Below, one piece after another: positions 17,980-27,816 of a stretch of 64,000 bases of DNA (the first letter of the stretch is position 1; every line of letters begins with the position of its first letter). Source of the DNA: Anaerolineaceae bacterium (lineage in GTDB: Bacteria > Chloroflexota > Anaerolineae > Aggregatilineales > Phototrophicaceae); NCBI GenBank assembly GCA_002699585.1, contig PABP01000004.1, forward strand, positions 1-64,000, given 5' to 3'. The notes below the pieces were generated by a model, which did not search any database, had not been told where the DNA came from, and saw nothing but the letters and a program-made list of their open reading frames with translations. The position numbers and the translations under genes are program-made.

Positions 17980-18280
17980 CTAGAAGTCAGCGATAATGTC
18001 TGCGAAGGGTTCTAATATACTGTCTGAGATGGCTTTCCCCATGTCGTTAACCACCTCAATATCACTGCGGAAATGAATGCCACCCCACATGCGAGATAAG
18101 CCAACCGTATCGGCTAAATTCAGCAAATCGTCGGTTTCAGATGGGAAGAATGCGGCCATCGTCGCTAGCGTTGCGGTCGTTCCAACGGAATGTGCTGCTG
18201 GGTAACTCGGATGATTGGGTGCTGGGAATAACGCGACAAACTCTGGGTCATATTGGAAGGGCCGGATGCCGTTCTCGCGT
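17980..18280 (-). pseudogene. PAP2/vanadium-haloperoxidase-type phosphatase, C-terminal fragment
   Basis: Read on the minus strand, the frame gives NGIRPFQYDPEFVALFPAPN, then HPSYPAAHSVGTTATLATMA, then SRMWGGIHFRSDIEVVNDMG, and stops at 17982-17980. PxxNHPSYPAAHS and the GGIHFRSD histidine motif are the active-site signatures of bacterial vanadium-dependent haloperoxidases and PAP2 phosphatases. The N-terminal two thirds are missing: the frame runs at about 18270-18285 into a histidine-kinase fragment on the opposite strand. It looks like a recombination or deletion junction. Confidence 0.8.
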
Positions 18281-18424
18281 TTGATGGAGAGAAAAGTAGA
18301 AGGTCATGGTTTAGGGCTTGCAATTGTTCGTCAAGTAGCCAGAAAGCTTGGTGGTGACGCGTTTGTGAGTAGCCGTCCGGGCCAGGGTAGTACGTTTAGT
18401 TTTACCTTGTTGCTAACACCTTAA
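18269..18424 (+). pseudogene. Histidine kinase, C-terminal ATPase fragment
   Basis: The frame gives RLMERKVEGHGLGLAIVRQV, then ARKLGGDAFVSSRPGQGSTF and SFTLLL before the stop. This is the G2 box and last strand of a HATPase_c domain. Everything upstream of the G2 box is missing and is replaced by the PAP2 fragment on the other strand. It cannot be a functional kinase. The stretch 18425-18623 that follows has no supported gene. Confidence 0.8.
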
Positions 18425-18623
18425 TAAGCAAATTATATTGCATATGAAGGACTCATTACCTGTTTACGTTTTTGACGGCTCTATATTCGAGTACTGATGA
18501 AAGGGTATGGCGTGACTAAGGTGACGGTTTATCGTTATCTGGGTAACTGAGAGTGATATGCTTTGTGTTATCCAACTCTTTGGGCTCGAATGACCCTTAA
18601 AAGGGTTACCTAACCTCTTAATG

Positions 18624-19754
18624 TCAGCCTGATGCTCCAACTTTGCTTACTGGGAAATTGACTCTTACTGTTGTGCCTGCACCAACTTGACTTTCCAAAT
18701 CTAATGAACCTCCCAGCAGATCAAGCGCTTGCTGGACGATTGATAATCCCAACCCTGTACCAGAGACTTTTGTGACGTTCGAACCTCGCTGAAAAGAACT
18801 AACAACACGCTGCTGGTCTTCTTCAAGAATACCTATACCCTGATCCTGAATGGTAAGCATGTATTGGCTGTCTACATTATCCAATGTTATGTGTACTCGG
18901 CTGCCCGGTGGTGAGTACTTAATGGCATTTGAGATAAGATTAGCTGAAATTTGACGTAGTAAGCGGGGATCTGTCATGACACGATCAGTAAGACAGCTTT
19001 CATAAAGTAATTCGTGTGCCTCACTGTCAGCCGCTCGAAATTCTTCCACGATGCGCCCCACAAACTGTCCAATCTCCAGTGGCTCAGGTTTGACTGTAAG
19101 TCTGTCAGCGTCTGCCTGAGCAAGAAAGAGCATGTCATCTAGCATCTGAATAAGCTGGCGTGCTGATGATTCGACATTATCTAAATGTTGTAGGCGGCGC
19201 TGCTCATCCATCCGGTCAGCGTAATTACGAAGCAGTTCAATAGACGAGATAATGGTCGCCATTGGGTTCCGAAAGTCATGTACAAACATAGCAACCATCT
19301 GGGCTTTTAGGGTACGCTGCTCATGTTCGTGCTCTAATCTCTGCCGCAAGGACTCTAATTCGATATCCTTTTCGCGTTTTTCGGCAGCTCTCTTGTCGAG
19401 GCGTGCCTCTACAGCCTGAATAAGTTCGTGGTTGGTGTACGGCTTGGTAATATAGTCATCTGCACCCAGGTTCATTCCCTGCCGGATATCATCATGAGTG
19501 ACCCTGGCAGTTGTGAAGATGAATGGCGTCCCCTGCGTCAGTGAATTGGCCCGAATATCTTGTAGCACACCATAGCCATCCAGACCTGGCATCATGATAT
19601 CGCATATGATTAGATCGGGAAGGTGACGAACAGCAGCGTTGACGCCCTCCAGGCCATCAGCGGCAGTTACAACTTCGTATCCTTCAAGAGTTAGCCATTC
19701 AGAGACCTCGTTGAGAAGTGCTTGTTCATCTTCTATAACTAGTATCTTGGCCAT
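18624..19754 (-). CDS. REC domain - histidine kinase fusion, 376 aa
   Basis: Residues 1-120 are a receiver domain (ILVIEDE, phospho-acceptor Asp52 in CDIMMPGLDGYG, and Lys104 in ITKPY). A coiled coil (about 125-155) leads to a dimerisation/phospho-acceptor domain with His159 in FVHDFRNP, then a HATPase_c domain (NLISNAIKYS, DQGIGI, GTGLGLSIV). The ATG at 19754 has AAGGAA upstream and follows the giant kinase by 4 bases; the frame is open to 19778. Input arrives at the receiver, so this protein can relay phosphate from the two upstream kinases. There is no DNA-binding output domain. Confidence 0.9.
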   Translation of the reverse strand: MAKILVIEDEQALLNEVSEWLTLEGYEVVTAADGLEGVNAAVRHLPDLIICDIMMPGLDGYGVLQDIRANSLTQGTPFIFTTARVTHDDIRQGMNLGADDYITKPYTNHELIQAVEARLDKRAAEKREKDIELESLRQRLEHEHEQRTLKAQMVAMFVHDFRNPMATIISSIELLRNYADRMDEQRRLQHLDNVESSARQLIQMLDDMLFLAQADADRLTVKPEPLEIGQFVGRIVEEFRAADSEAHELLYESCLTDRVMTDPRLLRQISANLISNAIKYSPPGSRVHITLDNVDSQYMLTIQDQGIGILEEDQQRVVSSFQRGSNVTKVSGTGLGLSIVQQALDLLGGSLDLESQVGAGTTVRVNFPVSKVGASG

Positions 19755-19758
19755 AGTC

Positions 19759-22700
19759 TTAATTTCCTTGTTGGGCAAGCGGTATTCGCACCGTAACTTT
19801 GGTGCCTACATCTATCTCGCTGTCGACATGAATCGTACCACCATGCAGATCCACTGATTCCTTAACAATAGTCATGCCCAGACCCGTTCCGTGAATGGTT
19901 CCCACGTTGGCTGCCCGGTGGAATGGTTCAAACAAATGCTTCAGGTCACTTTCCGGTATGCCCATCCCTTGATCCTGCACACGGAGGACAAAGGCTCCAT
20001 CGTCATATTCCAGGCGGACGGTGATGCTCTGGTCTTCCAACGAGTACTTGATAGCATTTGAAAGCAGATTGCTTATGAGTTGTCGGATTAATTTCTGATC
20101 CACCTGCGCTATGGGCAGACGTCCTTCACATACATATTGTATGTTGTGAGTGAAATTTGGTTGATTAATGTACTCGTCGATAACATCATGGCACAATATA
20201 TCCAGATTAACTGATTCTGGGTTGAACAGCGTACGTCGCGCTTGCAACTGCGCGAGTTTAAGCACGTCATCCATGATGTCTTTGAGATAGTCTACCTGGA
20301 TGCCAATACTGTCCAATTTTTGCTCTATTTGGTCGTCCGTAAGCCGTTGCCGATAAATGCTCAATGTGTCCGTGATTGCCCTGATAGTTGCTAGCGGTGT
20401 ACGAAATTCATGTGAGGCCATTGAGACAAAACTCGACTTGAGTTCGTTGAGTTCCCTCTCTTTTTCTACGGCAGCACGCAGCGATTCTTCGATCTGTTTG
20501 CGCTGGGTGATGTCATGAATAATGCACACATAGCTCCCATCTTCGATGAACCCAATCGTCAACTCTATTGGAAAAGATGTGCCATCTTTATTCTGCGCTT
20601 CGACATCCATAGACAGGCTGCCCACAGTTGCTCTGGCTTCAGAAATTGTCTGAATAACATCATTACTGTCAGCAAGAAGCGAAACAGGTGAAATATCGAC
20701 AAATTCACCCTGTTCGTAACCAAACATCACCTCAAAAGCTGGATTGGCTTGTTCAATGTTCAAATCAGCATCGAGCAGCAAAATAGGATCCACACTGTTG
20801 TTTAGGATGGCTTCAACACGTTCCTTGGCTTCCTGCAACTGCTGAGTGCGCTCAGCCACCCTCCGTTCGAGAGTATCGTGGGCCGCCTGAAGTGCGGAAG
20901 TCGCCTCCATAGATTCCATCCTATGGCCAAGCCTGCGCGACAACTCGTTAACGAGCAAAACTTCCTCTTTCAGGAAAGGTCCTTCAAACTGCTGTGGTCG
21001 CTCTTCTAAATAGTAGACTTCGAGCAGGCCAAGCTGAACGTCGTAAACAATTATGGGGCTAGTTAGGTGCCAGCTTGTCTCTCGGAAATGCTCGGAGCTA
21101 TAGCTCTTGTCGTCAACAGTCAGGCGAGCGCAAGCAATATCAGGATATTGCATACCCGTTGGGATCAGGTTCGCCGTTTCCTGGAACAGGGCCTCCCGCG
21201 TAATGCTGCGCTGTTCTAGGAGCTTGGAATGCTCATACAAGCAACCCAATTCTTTCACGCGTTCGTTAAGTTGATTCTTCTGCTCCTCCAACCGCTGAGC
21301 TGCCAAGACCTTATCTGTAATATTCATGTGTGCCAACACCACACGCCTGGGCGCAGATTCCGGGAAGGGTGTTACGTGCATGCTAAACCAACGCTCTTCA
21401 TCAGGGCTATGGCAAGGGTAGTCTAAATAGAATGCGTCTCGCGATCCATCAATTACTGCACGAATGCCATCGGCTGCAGGCGTCGCTTCTTCAGAATTAG
21501 CACTTATCGCAGTATCACAGATCGTAAGATAGTTTGTGCCAACGTAGTGTGCCGATGCCGGAGAGCCATTCTCTTCTGCAAATTTCACCCAGGATTCATT
21601 GACATTGATAATCGTGCCATCCGAAGCCAATACCGCTGTGTGGGCGGAGAAGGCATCCAGCGTTGTTTGAAGAAAGACACGCATGTCTTCTACAATATTC
21701 ACTTGAGCACGTAGCGCTTGTTCGGCCTGCTGACGCTGATCTTGCTCTTCTGCAAATGCCATTGCAAAAGAAATATCGCCAGCCATTTCATCCAATAGCA
21801 TGACTTCTTGTTGATTGAAGAACTTCGGCTGGTCCGAGTAGAGACCAAACAAGCCGCGCGTCTCGCCTGCTACCACGAGCGGAAAGGCTGCCAATGAGCG
21901 ATAGCCCAAGGCTAAAGCTTTCTTGGCCCATGGGACATCGAGCATATCCCGCTCAATATCGTTTACAACAACGCGGTCGCCATCTATAAGCGCCTGGTTG
22001 CACGGATTTGTATTCTCGGATTCGCTCGAAATCAGTCGTTGTAACATTTCAAGATAGTCACCAAAATGCCCGGCTTTGGCGATTGGTTTTACGTCTCCCG
22101 TTTCGACATTGAGCATACCAATCCACGCCATGCGAAAGCCGCCATCGTCGATTGCAATCCGACAGGCTTCATCAAATAAATTCGACGTATCGCGAACGCG
22201 GACAATCGTCTGGTTAACATTGCTCAGCAGGGTCAACGTTCTGTTTAGCTTGCGTAGATCCTCTTCAGCCTGCTTGCGTTCAGTGATGTCCTGTACAATC
22301 CCTGTTAGCATTATTGGATTGTCTGCTTTGTCTCTGATGACCTCACCTGCCTCAGCCCAGATCCAGCGCTCTGTTCCATCTGACAGGACAATACGATATT
22401 CCAGCGGAATGATGGGTTTATTTTTTGCAACCGAAGCGTTCGAATGTTCAACTGCGGCCCGATCATCAGGATGAATGACTCTTTCAATTAAATCATTTAA
22501 ATCACCACTGAAGGCTTCCTTTTCGATGCCAAAGATACGATACATCTCATCGGACGCTTCCAGACGATTGGTTACAATATGCCATGTCCAATTGCCTACA
22601 CGGGCAACTCGCTGTGCCTTTTTCAGTGCGGATTCCGAACGTCGAATGGTTTCCTCTGCTTTTTTACGCTCAGTGATGTCCATAGAGACACCGATAATCC

Positions 22701-24240
22701 CTATCTGCGTTCCCTCAGCATCCACAACGGGGCTGTTAGAGATCAGTGCGGGAAAGGTCGTACCGTCTTTGCGCTGAACCGTGAACTCGCCATTCCATGT
22801 TTTGCCGGACTGCAAGCTTTCTACGATCTCATTGGCCTGCTGGCGGGATGTATTGGATGGTGTTAATTCCAGGATACTACGGCCTATGGCTTCCTCTGTG
22901 GACCAGCCATAGAGATTTTCAGCAAATCTATTCCAGTAGGTAACATTAGCATTCATATCGGTGGCAATGACCGCCTGCCCGACCATGTCCAGCAACTGCG
23001 CCTGAAAACGATTCATGTCTTCAGCATGTCGACGCTCAGTAATGTCCATCCCATAAATGTTGGTGTAGCCCATGTCTGATATGGGGACGAACTGAAGGGA
23101 CCAGAACCTATCACCGTACTGAAAATCCATTTGCTCAATTGATCCACTAGCAGAGGTATCTGCCAGGAAAGTGAGCCATTCTGCTGGCGCAAGGTCACCG
23201 ACCGAGACATCTAATTCCATCAAAAGCGCTTGACCAGACGAGTTGGCGTAGAGGATTGTCCCATCACCAGACAATCGCAAGATGGGCTGTGGGTTTTCCA
23301 AAGGGAACTTCGCTAGACTATTGATCTCTGCCTGAGCCTTTTTGCGCTCAGTAATATCCGTAAATGATGCAACGACGCCCAACAGATCGTCGTTTTCCGC
23401 GTCGTGCAGGGGTTGTGAGTTGATAATCAACCACCTTATTGTTTTGTCGGGCGTGTTCACGCCCATGACAACATCGGATACGGGGTCACCCGTCTTTAAT
23501 GTCACCGATACAGGGTGCGTATCGCTAGGGAACGGGGAGCCATCTTCGTGTATCGCCTGCCAGTTAGGATCATATGCAGTCCGACCCATGATTTGATCAG
23601 CCGGCAGTCCCAGAATACGCTCTGCAGCCGGGTTGCAAGTCTGAAAAACACCTTTGCTGTCTAGAAGAATAATGCCCTCATGCAAAGCCGTAACGACTGT
23701 ACGGTAACGTGCTTCACTTTGTCTTAGTTCGTTTTCCTTGCGATTTTTCTCAGTAAGATCCGTCAAGATTAAGCAGATCAACTGGGACTCATCTACGCTG
23801 AATGGACTAGCAGATATATACAGTGGAATGACACGACCGTCTCGATTTTGACACTCAAATTCTCCATGACAACCATTTTCAGAAAGTGCCCTGTGGAGCA
23901 AGCTAAGAAACTGTTTACGCTGGTCGGGAACGATATATTTGTCGATTTCCTGCGAAGCAAGTTGATCTAGAGGTTCTTCTAGAATTCTAGCAAGATAGGG
24001 ATTGCTATAGAGGATTGTGCCATCAGGGGTGATAGTAGCAGCGCCCTCCTGCATCTTTTCGACCAACAATCGATATGGATGGTCAGCACTCTCTAGTGTG
24101 TAGATTTGATTTCCCTGAGAGGTAGCGACAACTAAAGCATCCACTGCGCCGCTACGAATCGCATGCAGGGTATCCTCAGCCTCACTCAGCCGCTGCCGTA
24201 GCTCTTGGTTTTCCTGTAGAAGTTGATCGTACGAGGACAT
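19759..24240 (-). CDS. Multi-PAS/GAF sensor histidine kinase, 1493 aa
   Basis: No transmembrane segment is seen, so the kinase is probably cytoplasmic. From the N-terminus: coiled coil 1-40, PAS 55-165, PAS 177-303, PAS 310-405, PAS 413-530, PAS 535-660 (RVGNWTWHI type), GAF 668-835, PAS 856-985, a GAF-like region 1000-1110, coiled coil, PAS 1141-1250, HisKA with His1277 in MASHEFRTPLATIRA, and HATPase_c (NLLSNAIKYS, DQGMGI, GTGLGMTIV). D-I-T-E-R-K linkers end most PAS units. The ATG at 24240 is preferred to a TTG three bases earlier. The first 175 residues closely resemble those of the next kinase upstream. Confidence 0.9.
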   Translation of the reverse strand: MSSYDQLLQENQELRQRLSEAEDTLHAIRSGAVDALVVATSQGNQIYTLESADHPYRLLVEKMQEGAATITPDGTILYSNPYLARILEEPLDQLASQEIDKYIVPDQRKQFLSLLHRALSENGCHGEFECQNRDGRVIPLYISASPFSVDESQLICLILTDLTEKNRKENELRQSEARYRTVVTALHEGIILLDSKGVFQTCNPAAERILGLPADQIMGRTAYDPNWQAIHEDGSPFPSDTHPVSVTLKTGDPVSDVVMGVNTPDKTIRWLIINSQPLHDAENDDLLGVVASFTDITERKKAQAEINSLAKFPLENPQPILRLSGDGTILYANSSGQALLMELDVSVGDLAPAEWLTFLADTSASGSIEQMDFQYGDRFWSLQFVPISDMGYTNIYGMDITERRHAEDMNRFQAQLLDMVGQAVIATDMNANVTYWNRFAENLYGWSTEEAIGRSILELTPSNTSRQQANEIVESLQSGKTWNGEFTVQRKDGTTFPALISNSPVVDAEGTQIGIIGVSMDITERKKAEETIRRSESALKKAQRVARVGNWTWHIVTNRLEASDEMYRIFGIEKEAFSGDLNDLIERVIHPDDRAAVEHSNASVAKNKPIIPLEYRIVLSDGTERWIWAEAGEVIRDKADNPIMLTGIVQDITERKQAEEDLRKLNRTLTLLSNVNQTIVRVRDTSNLFDEACRIAIDDGGFRMAWIGMLNVETGDVKPIAKAGHFGDYLEMLQRLISSESENTNPCNQALIDGDRVVVNDIERDMLDVPWAKKALALGYRSLAAFPLVVAGETRGLFGLYSDQPKFFNQQEVMLLDEMAGDISFAMAFAEEQDQRQQAEQALRAQVNIVEDMRVFLQTTLDAFSAHTAVLASDGTIINVNESWVKFAEENGSPASAHYVGTNYLTICDTAISANSEEATPAADGIRAVIDGSRDAFYLDYPCHSPDEERWFSMHVTPFPESAPRRVVLAHMNITDKVLAAQRLEEQKNQLNERVKELGCLYEHSKLLEQRSITREALFQETANLIPTGMQYPDIACARLTVDDKSYSSEHFRETSWHLTSPIIVYDVQLGLLEVYYLEERPQQFEGPFLKEEVLLVNELSRRLGHRMESMEATSALQAAHDTLERRVAERTQQLQEAKERVEAILNNSVDPILLLDADLNIEQANPAFEVMFGYEQGEFVDISPVSLLADSNDVIQTISEARATVGSLSMDVEAQNKDGTSFPIELTIGFIEDGSYVCIIHDITQRKQIEESLRAAVEKERELNELKSSFVSMASHEFRTPLATIRAITDTLSIYRQRLTDDQIEQKLDSIGIQVDYLKDIMDDVLKLAQLQARRTLFNPESVNLDILCHDVIDEYINQPNFTHNIQYVCEGRLPIAQVDQKLIRQLISNLLSNAIKYSLEDQSITVRLEYDDGAFVLRVQDQGMGIPESDLKHLFEPFHRAANVGTIHGTGLGMTIVKESVDLHGGTIHVDSEIDVGTKVTVRIPLAQQGN

Positions 24241-24308
24241 CAATCTAGCCTGTTTTTAATTTACATTATATTATTTTTAGTTTGTTAATATTCTAAAATT
24301 TTATTGTA

Positions 24309-25538
24309 TTAACTTTCGATAGGGAGGCGAATCCTAAGAATTGTTTCTACATTTGGCACACTATCAATTTCGATTGAACCATGATGTAGTTCAACAATAC
24401 GCTTCACAATTGCTAATCCCAGCCCTGCGCCACCTGTCATACTGCGCGCCTCATCCACTTTGAAAAATCGTTCAAAAACGTGTTGCAACTTTTCCGAGCT
24501 GATACCAGGACCGCTATTCGCGACTTCAATCAGGATGTGGTGGTCTTCCATAATTGCCGAGCGAACTTGAACTTCTCCGTCAGGGGGCGTAAAGCGAATG
24601 GCATTCTGAATTAACTCTACCAGCGCGCGAAAGAGCATTTCCGCATCAAATGAAATAAGTGGTGTATCTAATAATAAATCACTACCAACGGCAATACCCT
24701 TTAGCTGCGCTTCTCGTTCAACAGACAATGTAGCCTGTTGGATTACAGCATTGATCTTACCTGGGCCCAGGATCAGCTCTTTAGTACTGTCCAGTGCCGC
24801 CATCTCCTGGAACTGCTCAAGGACACGATTCAAATACAGAACTTGGCTCTCAACCTGTCGAACTTTCTCTTGTCTACGTTGCTCGTCTTCAATGTGGCCA
24901 AGATTGACAAGGCCACTGAGGATGATTGAGATGGGTGTTCTCAAATCATGTGAGGTGTTACTTACAAAATTGGCTAACAATCGGGTGCGTTGCCGCTCGA
25001 TTTCTAGTTCGATGGCCTGCTGCTCGGCCTGCTTCTGCTGGCGCAAATCAGTAATAATCAAACAGATGATGTTACTTTCATCCAGTGGAAGCAAATTGGC
25101 GCTAATAAGGACCGGGACATCTTGAGCAGATTGCTGCCGTAAATTGAACTCGCGCTCACCGCCTCTAGCAGCTAATGCTGCCTGTCGAAATGTAAGGAAC
25201 GATTCACGTTGGTCATGAACAATATATTGGTCAATGTGTTGTGAAATAAGCTGATCAGAGGGATAACCAACAGTCTCTGCAAAACGTCGATTGCAATAGA
25301 GGATAACTCCATCAGCAGATATTGTTACCGCACCCTCGAGCATTTCTTCAACCAGCAAACGATAGGGATGGTCGGCACTTTGCAGCGTGAATACCTGGGG
25401 ACCCGAAACTGATGAAACAACAAAAGCATCGACTTCACCTGCACTAATTGCCCGCAGGGTTTCCTCAGCTTCCAATAAACGAGCATGAAGTTCAGCATTC
25501 TGCTCTTCTAGTTCGGTATTTTTGTGCTGGCCTACCAT
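24309..25538 (-). CDS. PAS-domain histidine kinase, 409 aa
   Basis: A coiled coil with LLEAEETLRAISAGEVDAFV precedes one PAS domain (about 55-165). HisKA follows, with His197 in NTSHDLRTPISIIL, then HATPase_c (LIQNAIRFT, NSGPGI, GAGLGLAIV). There are no membrane helices. The N-terminal module is paralogous to that of the giant kinase downstream, suggesting that the two sense the same partner. The close linkage to two KaiB-family genes and kaiC suggests a SasA-like role reading KaiC or KaiB state, although it lacks SasA's own KaiB-like domain. Confidence 0.9.
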   Translation of the reverse strand: MVGQHKNTELEEQNAELHARLLEAEETLRAISAGEVDAFVVSSVSGPQVFTLQSADHPYRLLVEEMLEGAVTISADGVILYCNRRFAETVGYPSDQLISQHIDQYIVHDQRESFLTFRQAALAARGGEREFNLRQQSAQDVPVLISANLLPLDESNIICLIITDLRQQKQAEQQAIELEIERQRTRLLANFVSNTSHDLRTPISIILSGLVNLGHIEDEQRRQEKVRQVESQVLYLNRVLEQFQEMAALDSTKELILGPGKINAVIQQATLSVEREAQLKGIAVGSDLLLDTPLISFDAEMLFRALVELIQNAIRFTPPDGEVQVRSAIMEDHHILIEVANSGPGISSEKLQHVFERFFKVDEARSMTGGAGLGLAIVKRIVELHHGSIEIDSVPNVETILRIRLPIES

Positions 25539-25559
25539 GTATTTTACCCAAGATTAAAT

Positions 25560-25907
25560 CTAGTCAGTTGATGCTATCAGATCCAATCCCGACAGCATTT
25601 TCCCCTGATCAGTTAAATCACCTACCATTCGTCGTTGTGGCAAGGGGCGTTTTTTGATGAGAGCTGGCACGGCAACCACATGTTCGTGCTCAGCGAGCTT
25701 TGTCTGTTGATAAATGTCAATGATCTGTAGTTCGTAGCGCCCCAATAAATATTCCTCACAAATGGACCGAACTGAAGCAATCGCTTGTATGGAGCGAAGG
25801 CTGTGTCCAGCTATGTAAAGCTGCAATACATAATAATTCTCGTCGAGCTGCCCCAGGGCGTTTGCAGGTAGCCCGTTTGTGTTGTCGGTTTCCTTCTCCA
25901 CCAGCAC
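25560..25907 (-). CDS. kaiB: KaiB-family protein (second copy), 115 aa
   Basis: The core YVLQLYIAGHSLRSIQAIAS, ICEEYLLGRYELQIIDI, the cis-proline segment VVAVPALIKKRP and the final RRMVGDLT match the KaiB thioredoxin-like fold. The GTG start at 25907 lies 4 bases after the previous kaiB stop. About 20 extra N-terminal residues are polar. It follows another kaiB copy and shares the same helix and GDLS/T landmarks but is clearly divergent, so it is a paralogue rather than a recent duplicate. It probably binds the KaiC ring or a kinase. Confidence 0.9.
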   Translation of the reverse strand: MLVEKETDNTNGLPANALGQLDENYYVLQLYIAGHSLRSIQAIASVRSICEEYLLGRYELQIIDIYQQTKLAEHEHVVAVPALIKKRPLPQRRMVGDLTDQGKMLSGLDLIASTD

Positions 25908-25911
25908 CCTC

Positions 25912-26256
25912 TCACTCCACGTCTTGTTGATTGGGGCGGATCTGCAAACCGACCAGTGTCCGCTCGGTATTCGATAAATCTCCGATGATTTTCTTAATTG
26001 GCTCTGGCAGTGACCTCACAAGCGTAGGAATAGCGACAATCTGCTCTCCCTCGGCCAATTGTGGATTCTCCAGCAAGTCTATCACCTGGATTTCATAACG
26101 TTTGCCTTCAAGATACCGCTCACATATCTTTTTTAAGTTGGCAATTGCCATCAGTGATTTGGGGCTTTGTCCTGCTACATATAGACGAAGTTCCCATTTT
26201 CTCTCACTCGCACCACCTATCATCATATCTTCGTATTCATCCATAATTCTCAACAT
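25912..26256 (-). CDS. kaiB: KaiB-family protein (first copy), 114 aa
   Basis: The sequence [60 protein letters not shown] and DLS matches KaiB over its whole length. KaiB is a fold-switching partner that binds the KaiC CI ring. The gene lies 118 bases downstream of kaiC. An alternative in-frame ATG at 26244 would remove four residues; the ribosome site does not clearly decide. No kaiA is present in the window. Confidence 0.92.
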
Positions 26257-26374
26257 TCTTTAACTTATTGATCAATGATTCTCGGTCAGCATGCGGTCCC
26301 TGCCGCTCCGATACTCTCGCAACAGAGTCAGTTTGTGCTGATACGGTCAAAATGTTGCGATTACCTCTCTAAGC

Positions 26375-27793
26375 TTATACCAATTGTATTCCCTGAGACG
26401 TAATGTTGAACTCACTTACCTGACTGGAGTGGGCCATTCCCCGTGACTTGACGATATATATGGCACGGTTTCGTTCCCCGTTTGATTCAATATTACGCAC
26501 CAGTAACCAGGTGTCCATCATCGAGGAAACATTGACTTCCGATATTTCAGCGGTTTCTCCCCCATGCGTCAAACTGGTCAATAGGGCGGTGGTTTCACGC
26601 ATTTTTAGAAAATCAATCAACCGCGTGAGCAACGCACGACTGGCTGATGCAGTACCGATGATATCGAAACTCGTTATTGGGTCCATGACCACAATCTGTG
26701 GGTCAAAGTCTGCGATGTCATTGTGCAACTTCGCCAGATGCATCTCAAGACTATACATCGTAGGACGAACAGTCTTGAAGCGCAGTGAATCTGCGTCCAC
26801 CCAGGGTCTCAGATCAATCCCCACCGAGCGCATGTTACGAATAATCTGTCCGGCTGGTTCTTCAAATGAAAAATACAGACAGCGTTCGCCTCTCAGGCAG
26901 GCCGCATGCACAAACTGGGCCGCGATAGTGGACTTGCCAGTTCCTGTCGGCCCAGAGACTAAGATCGTGCTACCACGGAAGAATCCCCGGCCTCCTAACA
27001 TATCGTCCAGGCGTGATATACCACTAGAAACGCGCTCCTCAGAGACCTTGTAATCCAAGCCGATGGAGGAAATCGGCAACACCGAAAATCCGCTTTCATC
27101 AATGAGAAAAGGGTATTCATCGCTGCCGTGGGGCGTTCCACGATATTTGACAATACGCATCCGTCGTGTAGAAAGTTGATTTTCAATACGATGATCCAAC
27201 AAAATCACGCAGTCGGAAACGTATTCCTCAATGCCATGCCGTGTAAGTGTTCCATCTCCACGTTCAGCAGTGATAATTGCGGTAACACCTTTATCTTTCA
27301 GCCACCGGAACAAGCGGCGTAGTTCACCACGCAAGATCTGTGTATCATCTAGCACGGCGAACAACACCTCTAGGGTGTCCAGGACAACACGTTTCGCGTT
27401 TACTTTTTGAATAGCATAGTCTAGCCGAATAAAAAGCCCGTCCAGATCGTAATCACCTGACTGTTCAATATCCACACGATCAATGCTGATGTGGTCAACC
27501 ACCAGTTTGTTCTGGTCTATCAGATTTTGAAGTGGAAAGCCTAGTGAGGCAGAGTTTTGTGAAAGTTCTTCGCGAGTTTCTTCAAAGGCCAAAAATACAC
27601 CGGGCTCATCAAATTCCGTGATGCCTCGAACCAAAAACTCCAATGCAAACAACGTCTTGCCACTGCCTGCACTACCACAAACCAGGGTGGGGCGCCCTTT
27701 CGGCAACCCGCCACCGCTAATCTCATTAAATCCAGCGATGCCTGTGGGTGCCTTGGGAAGTGCAATATGCTTTGGACCAATTGAATCTATCAT
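26375..27793 (-). CDS. kaiC: KaiC, double-domain circadian-type ATPase, 472 aa
   Basis: Two RecA-like domains are present. CI has Walker A GSAGSGKT (40-47) and the catalytic pair Glu71-Glu72 (FLAFEETREE). CII has GPTGTGKS (281-288) and FSFEEPAGQ. In CII the segment EISEVNVSSMMDT places Ser423-Ser424 where the cyanobacterial clock protein has its Ser431/Thr432 autophosphorylation pair. The C-terminus stops at NITSQGIQLV, so the tail that binds KaiA is absent, consistent with no kaiA. The ATG at 27793 has AGGGG upstream (a TTG lies one codon earlier). It heads a six-gene operon with two kaiB and three kinase genes. Confidence 0.95.
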   Translation of the reverse strand: MIDSIGPKHIALPKAPTGIAGFNEISGGGLPKGRPTLVCGSAGSGKTLFALEFLVRGITEFDEPGVFLAFEETREELSQNSASLGFPLQNLIDQNKLVVDHISIDRVDIEQSGDYDLDGLFIRLDYAIQKVNAKRVVLDTLEVLFAVLDDTQILRGELRRLFRWLKDKGVTAIITAERGDGTLTRHGIEEYVSDCVILLDHRIENQLSTRRMRIVKYRGTPHGSDEYPFLIDESGFSVLPISSIGLDYKVSEERVSSGISRLDDMLGGRGFFRGSTILVSGPTGTGKSTIAAQFVHAACLRGERCLYFSFEEPAGQIIRNMRSVGIDLRPWVDADSLRFKTVRPTMYSLEMHLAKLHNDIADFDPQIVVMDPITSFDIIGTASASRALLTRLIDFLKMRETTALLTSLTHGGETAEISEVNVSSMMDTWLLVRNIESNGERNRAIYIVKSRGMAHSSQVSEFNITSQGIQLV

Positions 27794-27802
27794 CAATAAT
27801 CC

Positions 27803-27816
27803 CCTAATTAATTAGG
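27803..27816 (-). promoter_or_regulatory. Palindrome at the kaiC ribosome-binding site
   Basis: CCTAATTAATTAGG is a perfect 14-bp palindrome immediately upstream of kaiC and touching its AGGGG ribosome-binding sequence. It could be an operator or an RNA hairpin that hides the start. No strong -35/-10 pair was identified for this operon. Confidence 0.35.

Follow-up and report, generated by a model that had tools for sequence, protein, structure and literature searches.

A KaiA-less KaiC2-type operon with a tailless KaiC and two histidine kinases sharing an N-terminal module

Introduction

A 64,000-nucleotide stretch of contig PABP01000004.1 from an Anaerolineaceae bacterium (assembly GCA_002699585.1), hereafter the window, carries a predicted six-gene operon that encodes a KaiC, two KaiB proteins, two histidine kinases (A and B), and a REC-HisKA-HATPase protein (the REC-kinase). 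The two histidine kinases begin with a common module of 56-58 residues, which we call NMOD. Our analysis suggests that this operon specifies a KaiA-independent timer of the KaiC2 type with a dedicated phosphorelay output that is read by the NMOD kinases, with the second KaiB (KaiB-2) as a candidate adaptor; we give this reading a probability of roughly 0.55. That NMOD tracks the type of KaiC, and that one KaiB paralogue stays with NMOD where operons have broken, points to a concrete candidate interface through which KaiBC systems that lack both KaiA and SasA may pass on their signal, including in Rhodobacter sphaeroides, whose KaiC and KaiB have already been purified and solved.

Results and Discussion

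The operon (18624-27816 of the window) consists of six intact open reading frames on the minus strand, all co-directional and separated by gaps of 4-118 bases. The order kaiC-kaiB-kaiB-kinase-kinase-REC-kinase, described in a first-pass annotation made from the letters alone, agrees with both the open reading frames and Pfam, which scores KaiC at 372 bits over two ATPase stretches and the KaiBs at 95 and 81 bits. The kaiC-kaiB-PAS kinase order and direction are thus present in the window, and the operon itself is predicted from this layout. The same annotation described the kai genes as fused to the kinases, which overstates what is adjacency only. It also raised the prospect of an internal promoter and terminator separating the two halves. 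Promoter-like sites are not in excess across the scan (21 vs 17.0 ± 4.2 in shuffles), nor are terminator-like sites (9 vs 9.9 ± 3.0), and the sole minus-strand terminator-like site of the scan lies within kaiC.

Histidine kinase A (24309..25538, minus strand; 409 residues) has the architecture NMOD-PAS-HisKA-HATPase, with NMOD at 25359..25526. Histidine kinase B (19759..24240, minus strand; 1493 residues) combines NMOD (24070..24237, minus strand, a profile match) with several PAS domains, GAF, and HisKA-HATPase. Its length and multi-PAS/GAF character stand as first described, whereas the count of seven PAS and two GAF domains is not confirmed: Pfam finds a single GAF_2 stretch and, for its most frequent PAS models, four stretches. 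The REC-kinase (18624..19754, minus strand; 376 residues) contains Asp52, Lys104, and His159 and is a candidate phosphate acceptor. A motif check places His197 of kinase A, His1277 of kinase B, and Asp52 where the annotation had put them. Past the end of the operon, at 18270-18425 on the plus strand, is a short open stretch whose C-terminus is like that of a histidine-kinase ATPase (GLGLAIV...), with in-frame stops upstream; it resembles what is left of a degraded kinase gene oriented toward the operon end.

The shared kinase N-terminus, which the first-pass annotation had singled out, proved to be the key feature. NMOD returns nothing above the Pfam cut-offs, an unconvincing best match (E 0.06) among PDB sequences, and just weak families of unknown function (best E 0.003) in PHROGs. 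An AlphaFold2 model of NMOD-PAS from a 73-row alignment shows a helix (residues 2-31) and a hairpin (37-50) followed by PAS, with a mean predicted local distance difference test score (pLDDT) of 92.6 and a predicted template modeling score of 0.72. All 50 Foldseek matches listed for this model are PAS or LOV proteins. These outcomes led us to reject NMOD as a KaiB-like or otherwise known domain; the model is that of a helix-plus-β-hairpin extension of a PAS domain. Word searches of the open-licence literature, outside which most subscription papers lie, found no description of the module or of an ordered pair of KaiB classes.

The distribution of NMOD was followed with a profile built from 37 sequences, all of them linked to kaiC. 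A KaiC at E<=1e-60 occurs in 40 of 400 Chloroflexota genomes; in 20 of the 40 it is of the R. sphaeroides-like type (identity 50-62%, the window aside), and the others have only a type at 37-42%. NMOD is found in 22 genomes, all within the 40, and in 0/360 of the rest (Fisher 1.3e-25, relatedness ignored). It is present in 19 of the 20 genomes with an R. sphaeroides-like KaiC. A second sample, the 274 genomes of the class that contains G744 (from which the Halochromatium locus comes), has NMOD in 6. All five genomes with an R. sphaeroides-like KaiC carry it, G744 having been chosen for that reason, and the sixth NMOD genome has a 267-residue kaiC fragment followed by kaiB and NMOD; the module is absent from all 14 genomes of the class that have only other KaiC. 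Eighteen genomes picked for a linked NMOD contain 20 NMODs in total, 18 of them positioned at the kaiC locus, and none was seen in the 12 other-type KaiC loci displayed. The operon kinase of R. sphaeroides 2.4.1 itself bears NMOD (E 9e-16). The domains that follow NMOD-PAS vary and include HisKA or HWE kinases, kinase-REC proteins, and GGDEF-EAL proteins (loci L109, L113, and L136); four Bacteroidota NMOD-PAS proteins tested have no recognised domain after it. Genome G380 (L209:5785-8559), which has only the other KaiC type, places an NMOD kinase beside a REC-GGDEF protein and has a REC-kinase close by. Taken together, these distributions suggest that NMOD mostly travels with KaiC2-type KaiC and may be the route by which such clocks pass on their signal.

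Gene order was compared across 110 annotated sources, comprising the window, 21 Chloroflexota loci, the 80 top-scoring hits from a genome scan at species level, and a further 8 loci from the class. Counts are over 109 of these, L143 having been dropped since no kaiC was called there, and they come from a second gene caller, the first having overlooked kaiC in 13 of 116 sources, as well as some kaiB hidden by antisense open reading frames. Because the 80 scan loci are the closest relatives, the sample is biased toward the KaiC clade of the window. A kaiB follows kaiC in 100/109 loci, and 65/109 have two or more. In 96 loci, an NMOD gene is among the five that follow kaiC; among the 13 without a linked NMOD, 6 end at a contig edge and 3 (L046-L048) carry NMOD on another contig. 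At 61/109 loci, window included, kaiC is accompanied by two or more kaiB and by an NMOD protein, both in bacteria and in records named as archaea, so that a comparison of gene order, as had been proposed, bears out this core. It does not bear out the complete six-gene order, which is found at none of the 108 other loci; kinase B and the REC-kinase therefore look like lineage-specific additions. Two NMOD genes in one operon occur only in the window and L044. An operon specific to Chloroflexota was considered and rejected, since the kaiC-kaiB-NMOD arrangement recurs outside the phylum. REC-LuxR regulators stand close by in L094, L123, L139, and L172, with none in the window operon. The kaiC-kaiB-kaiB-NMOD cassettes of L081, L119, and L131, in records named Methanoperedens and Bathyarchaeota, suggest transfer between domains if those bins are clean.

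The two kaiB genes, called divergent in the first pass, belong to separate old classes. The first, kaiB-1 (25912..26256, minus strand), is of the kaiC-proximal class, which includes R. sphaeroides KaiB, and its product is 83% identical over 92 columns to its counterpart in G441, a genome of the same family. The second, kaiB-2 (25560..25907, minus strand), is of the kinase-proximal class. In a FastTree tree of 168 KaiBs, one branch with support 0.99 has 63/65 second-position and 0/65 first-position copies on one side. When canonical KaiBs are added, the best split has support 0.79, with 64/65 first copies and 1/65 second copies on one side. A tree of 76 of the KaiB rows, rooted on canonical KaiB, places all 26 KaiB-1 in one clade (97) and groups 24 of 26 KaiB-2 at 85, with canonical KaiB separate at 96. 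By these trees, KaiB-1 and KaiB-2 are old paralogues in a fixed order. KaiB is known to switch folds (PMC11551320). Positions 57, 88, and 90 (PMC5520375; PDB-chain numbering), implicated in that switch, were tried as class markers and gave no clean separation, L052 being omitted from this comparison since its copies group on the sides opposite to those expected. The structure model of KaiB-2 is poor (mean pLDDT 60.9) and permits no firm statement on its fold.

Five genomes, probably representing two lineages, have broken operons in which KaiB-2 stays with the NMOD protein. G118 and G134, which have the other KaiC type, encode KaiB-2 and an NMOD kinase (L206:7922-9503 and L207:6452-7928) preceded by the same REC-PAS gene that lies upstream in L056-L060, with kaiC2 and kaiB-1 absent there; we read this arrangement as a loss of those two genes. 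G222, G260, and G267 carry kaiC2-kaiB-1 on one contig; on a different contig, a PAS-PAS-PAS-KaiB-2 fusion of 557-563 residues adjoins a 1246-residue NMOD multi-GAF protein (L208:4626-10058, L210:4703-10153, and L217:4232-9664). These genomes bear on the possibility that NMOD and KaiC co-occur only because whole cassettes are transferred, with no physical link between NMOD and the Kai proteins. The cassette is found scattered through numerous phyla and in records labelled as archaea, as such transfer would produce. However, NMOD and KaiC2 lie on different contigs of one genome in G222, G260, and G267, the broken operons split according to KaiB class, and NMOD is conserved while its output domain changes. 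Transfer as the whole explanation is the least probable of the alternatives we weighed.

KaiC itself (26375..27793, minus strand) has 472 residues counted from its ATG; a TTG 3 bases upstream is an alternative start, the frame being open there too. Its best PDB matches are R. sphaeroides KaiC at 604 bits, other KaiC entries scoring at most 388 bits. Two Walker A motifs and two glutamate pairs are retained, and the phosphosite pair is Ser423-Ser424, as annotated, when numbered from ATG (424-425 from TTG). Two serines at this position are a hallmark of the KaiC2 type (PMC5520375, PMC10076222) and occur in 98 of the 109 KaiC surveyed; KaiC2-type proteins with one or both serines replaced (AG, AS, or SA) are found in L042-L044, L097, L103, L116, and L124. 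The window's genome, 96% complete, encodes a single protein resembling this KaiC at E<=1e-60, although PF06745 matches five further places at 27-58 bits. Its only KaiBs at E<=0.001 are the two in this operon. KaiA (PF07688) has no match in the genome, whereas the Synechococcus elongatus control matched, and Pfam finds no KaiB domain on any of the three operon kinases, so the description of a KaiA-less system without a SasA-type kinase holds. No RpaA-type DNA-binding regulator is present among the six genes, again as first described; unlinked regulators were not searched for.

The KaiC of the window is by sequence a KaiC2-type protein of the R. sphaeroides kind in a tailless variant. A C-terminal extension is reported "predominantly" in KaiC2, and in R. 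sphaeroides it couples two hexamers into a dodecamer via a coiled coil (PMC10076222). Beyond the KaiC core, the window protein has 0 residues and R. sphaeroides KaiC has 104, and at least 60 are present in 97 of the 109 KaiC. One of these 97, L049, has a tail that resembles a frame artefact; it was counted but left out of the tail profile. The first-pass annotation had noted that KaiC lacks the tail used by KaiA, and the protein does end at the core domain; the absence of a KaiA-binding tail is less informative than that of the KaiC2 coiled-coil tail. Short tails are found in 12 of the 109, of which 11 besides the window (L046-L048, L051, L055, L146, L150, L152, L172, L177, and L178) have 3-36 residues past the core, and a further case, L213, lies outside the 109. 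A smaller set of 91 had given 8, and the short-tailed KaiC added by enlarging it mostly have a linked NMOD. Tail loss in KaiC2 thus recurs.

The 118-base gap between kaiC and kaiB-1 (26257..26374, minus strand) may preserve a trace of the lost tail. Beyond the kaiC stop codon, its reading frame contains two stops and then a stretch like the start of a KaiC2 tail. Its in-register tail score is reached by 7, 2, 3, and 14 of 5000 dinucleotide shuffles for 17, 20, 25, and 30 residues, respectively, in a test made after the likeness had been noticed by eye. Equally high scores occur at 110 of 127,876 20-residue positions across the whole window, and an unguided search of six frames with a tail hidden Markov model found no vestige. 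The gap stretch and the tail of G441, whose KaiC is 69% identical to that of the window and has its tail, agree at 22 of 51 bases. From this likeness, a tail vestige is possible to probable.

Such a vestige raises the alternative that the locus is decaying or repurposed, in which case the tailless KaiC would no longer be a timer and kinases A and B and the REC-kinase would form an ordinary multi-input sensory relay with the kai genes as mere neighbours. The missing tail fits this account, as do the long KaiB-2 end branch (1.15 vs 0.36 in G441), the failure to find a KaiC at E<=1e-60 in the same-genus genome G677, and the confinement of the six-gene order to the window. In contrast, the KaiC core is not decaying: its end branch, 0.38, is close to the 0.34 of G441. 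The KaiC motifs and the Ser-Ser pair are also retained, KaiB-1 remains close to its G441 counterpart, NMOD is kept on both kinases, and short tails recur elsewhere. Moreover, R. sphaeroides KaiC cut at Glu490 remains a hexamer with a similar kinase rate (PMC10076222), the window protein ending about 27 residues earlier by PDB alignment. We consider decay improbable, if somewhat less so than cassette transfer alone.

The tail also matters for a different account of the interface, in which NMOD contacts KaiC itself and KaiB-2 takes no part. The N-terminal helix of NMOD might, for example, pair with the KaiC coiled-coil tail, and KaiB-2 would have some other role, such as that of a decoy or a second resetting factor. 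A helix of about 30 residues begins the NMOD model, and the R. sphaeroides KaiC2 tail is a coiled coil (PMC10076222). Five of the 12 short-tailed KaiC (L046, L047, L048, L051, and L055) have no linked NMOD and one more is cut by a contig end, L046-L048 being close relatives that are not independent in this count; among the 97 long-tailed KaiC, only L054 and L104 have none, 5 cut loci aside. The loci in which NMOD occurs without a KaiB-2 call point the same way. However, linked NMOD is kept by 6 of the 12 short-tailed KaiC (window, L146, L150, L152, L172, and L178) and by L213, and two genomes carry KaiB-2 with an NMOD kinase and no kaiC2. Direct binding is unlikely on this balance, yet it is the strongest of the competing explanations.

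Our studies allow us to propose how the preferred reading, a KaiC2 timer read by NMOD kinases, might operate. By analogy with R. sphaeroides KaiC, which autophosphorylates without KaiA in a state set by ATP/ADP and is driven to the night state by KaiB (PMC10076222), KaiC would autophosphorylate at Ser423/Ser424 according to ATP/ADP, and KaiB-1 would bind KaiC and help to reset it. The NMOD proteins would receive the KaiC/KaiB state, with KaiB-2 as a candidate adaptor, in effect the KaiB domain of SasA acting in trans. Kinases A and B, having taken up the signal, would then phosphorylate the REC-kinase at Asp52, and the REC-kinase could relay the signal to an unlinked regulator. These binding and phosphotransfer steps are what we infer, together with the timing and the consequences of lacking the tail. 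In S. elongatus, autophosphorylation is favoured when the A-loop, which includes residues 487-495, is exposed (PMC8538168). By PDB alignment, the window KaiC ends near S. elongatus residue 480, N-terminal to this loop, and because it stops there, a constantly active kinase would be expected. The Glu490-cut R. sphaeroides KaiC is dismantled when KaiB binds (PMC10076222); the window would be a natural tailless case, indicating that such clocks occur in nature.

Several observations weigh against this reading. The NMOD profile derives from kaiC-linked sequences, and in many genomes only a subset of the first-look NMOD candidates was scored (in Chloroflexota, 16 of as many as 57), so that divergent NMODs may escape. 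NMOD was not found in G012, which has an R. sphaeroides-like KaiC, and is present in G118, G134, and G380, which have only the other type. It occurs without a KaiB-2 call at 26/109 loci (19 with KaiB-1 alone and 7 for which the caller gave no KaiB, though short kaiB genes may escape it), and therefore KaiB-2 is not generally required; 9/109 have NMOD with KaiB-2 only. The NMOD model is not KaiB-like, and its fold thus gives no argument for binding. The long branch of KaiB-2, together with the tailless KaiC, could mean that the system is drifting. A wider proposal, which we advance only tentatively and hold to be less probable than the reading for the window, is that NMOD-PAS might be a general receiver of KaiA-less KaiC2 clocks in bacteria and archaea, mounted on kinases or cyclic di-GMP enzymes or followed by no recognised domain, KaiB-2 serving in trans as an adaptor in the manner of SasA. 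On this view, the window would hold a variant without the tail, a single clock driving two NMOD kinases that converge on a REC-kinase.

Comparison with Known Systems

The closest known counterpart is the KaiBC system of R. sphaeroides with its kaiC-kaiB-HWE kinase operon, which the window resembles in KaiC clade, lack of KaiA, gene order, and a kinase NMOD. R. sphaeroides has a KaiC tail of 104 residues, one kaiB, and one HWE kinase, whereas the window has a tailless KaiC, two KaiB classes, two HisKA-type NMOD kinases, and a REC-kinase. Operons of the form kaiC-B-PAS/HK (histidine kinase) are described in R. sphaeroides and Rhodopseudomonas palustris (PMC4794148), and kaiC-kaiB is described next to histidine kinase or GGDEF/EAL genes (PMC3164672). 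By the description in PMC4794148, the R. palustris operon is of the same type, to which the window adds a kinase and the REC-kinase. The Ramlibacter kaiC-Nt_HK pair, compared here by description only, likewise has a kinase after KaiC, and a conserved region at the N-terminus of that kinase has been suggested to contact KaiC; unlike in the window, this family of KaiC comes without kaiB, its phosphosite residues differ, and the Nt region is said to resemble SasA and KaiB (PMC3164672).

The cyanobacterial SasA-RpaA system shares with the proposed mechanism a histidine kinase as the output of a KaiC timer. SasA carries its KaiB-like sensor domain on the kinase, whereas in the window KaiB is separate, NMOD is on the kinase, and no RpaA-type regulator is in the operon. 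The first-pass annotation had suggested that the arrangement may be a phosphorelay different from SasA-RpaA; the absence of a SasA-like kinase stands, but the account was incomplete, kaiC-B-PAS/HK operons having been published and not being special to Chloroflexota. The operon type is therefore known already, and what is new is the combination of a tailless KaiC with two NMOD kinases and a REC-kinase.

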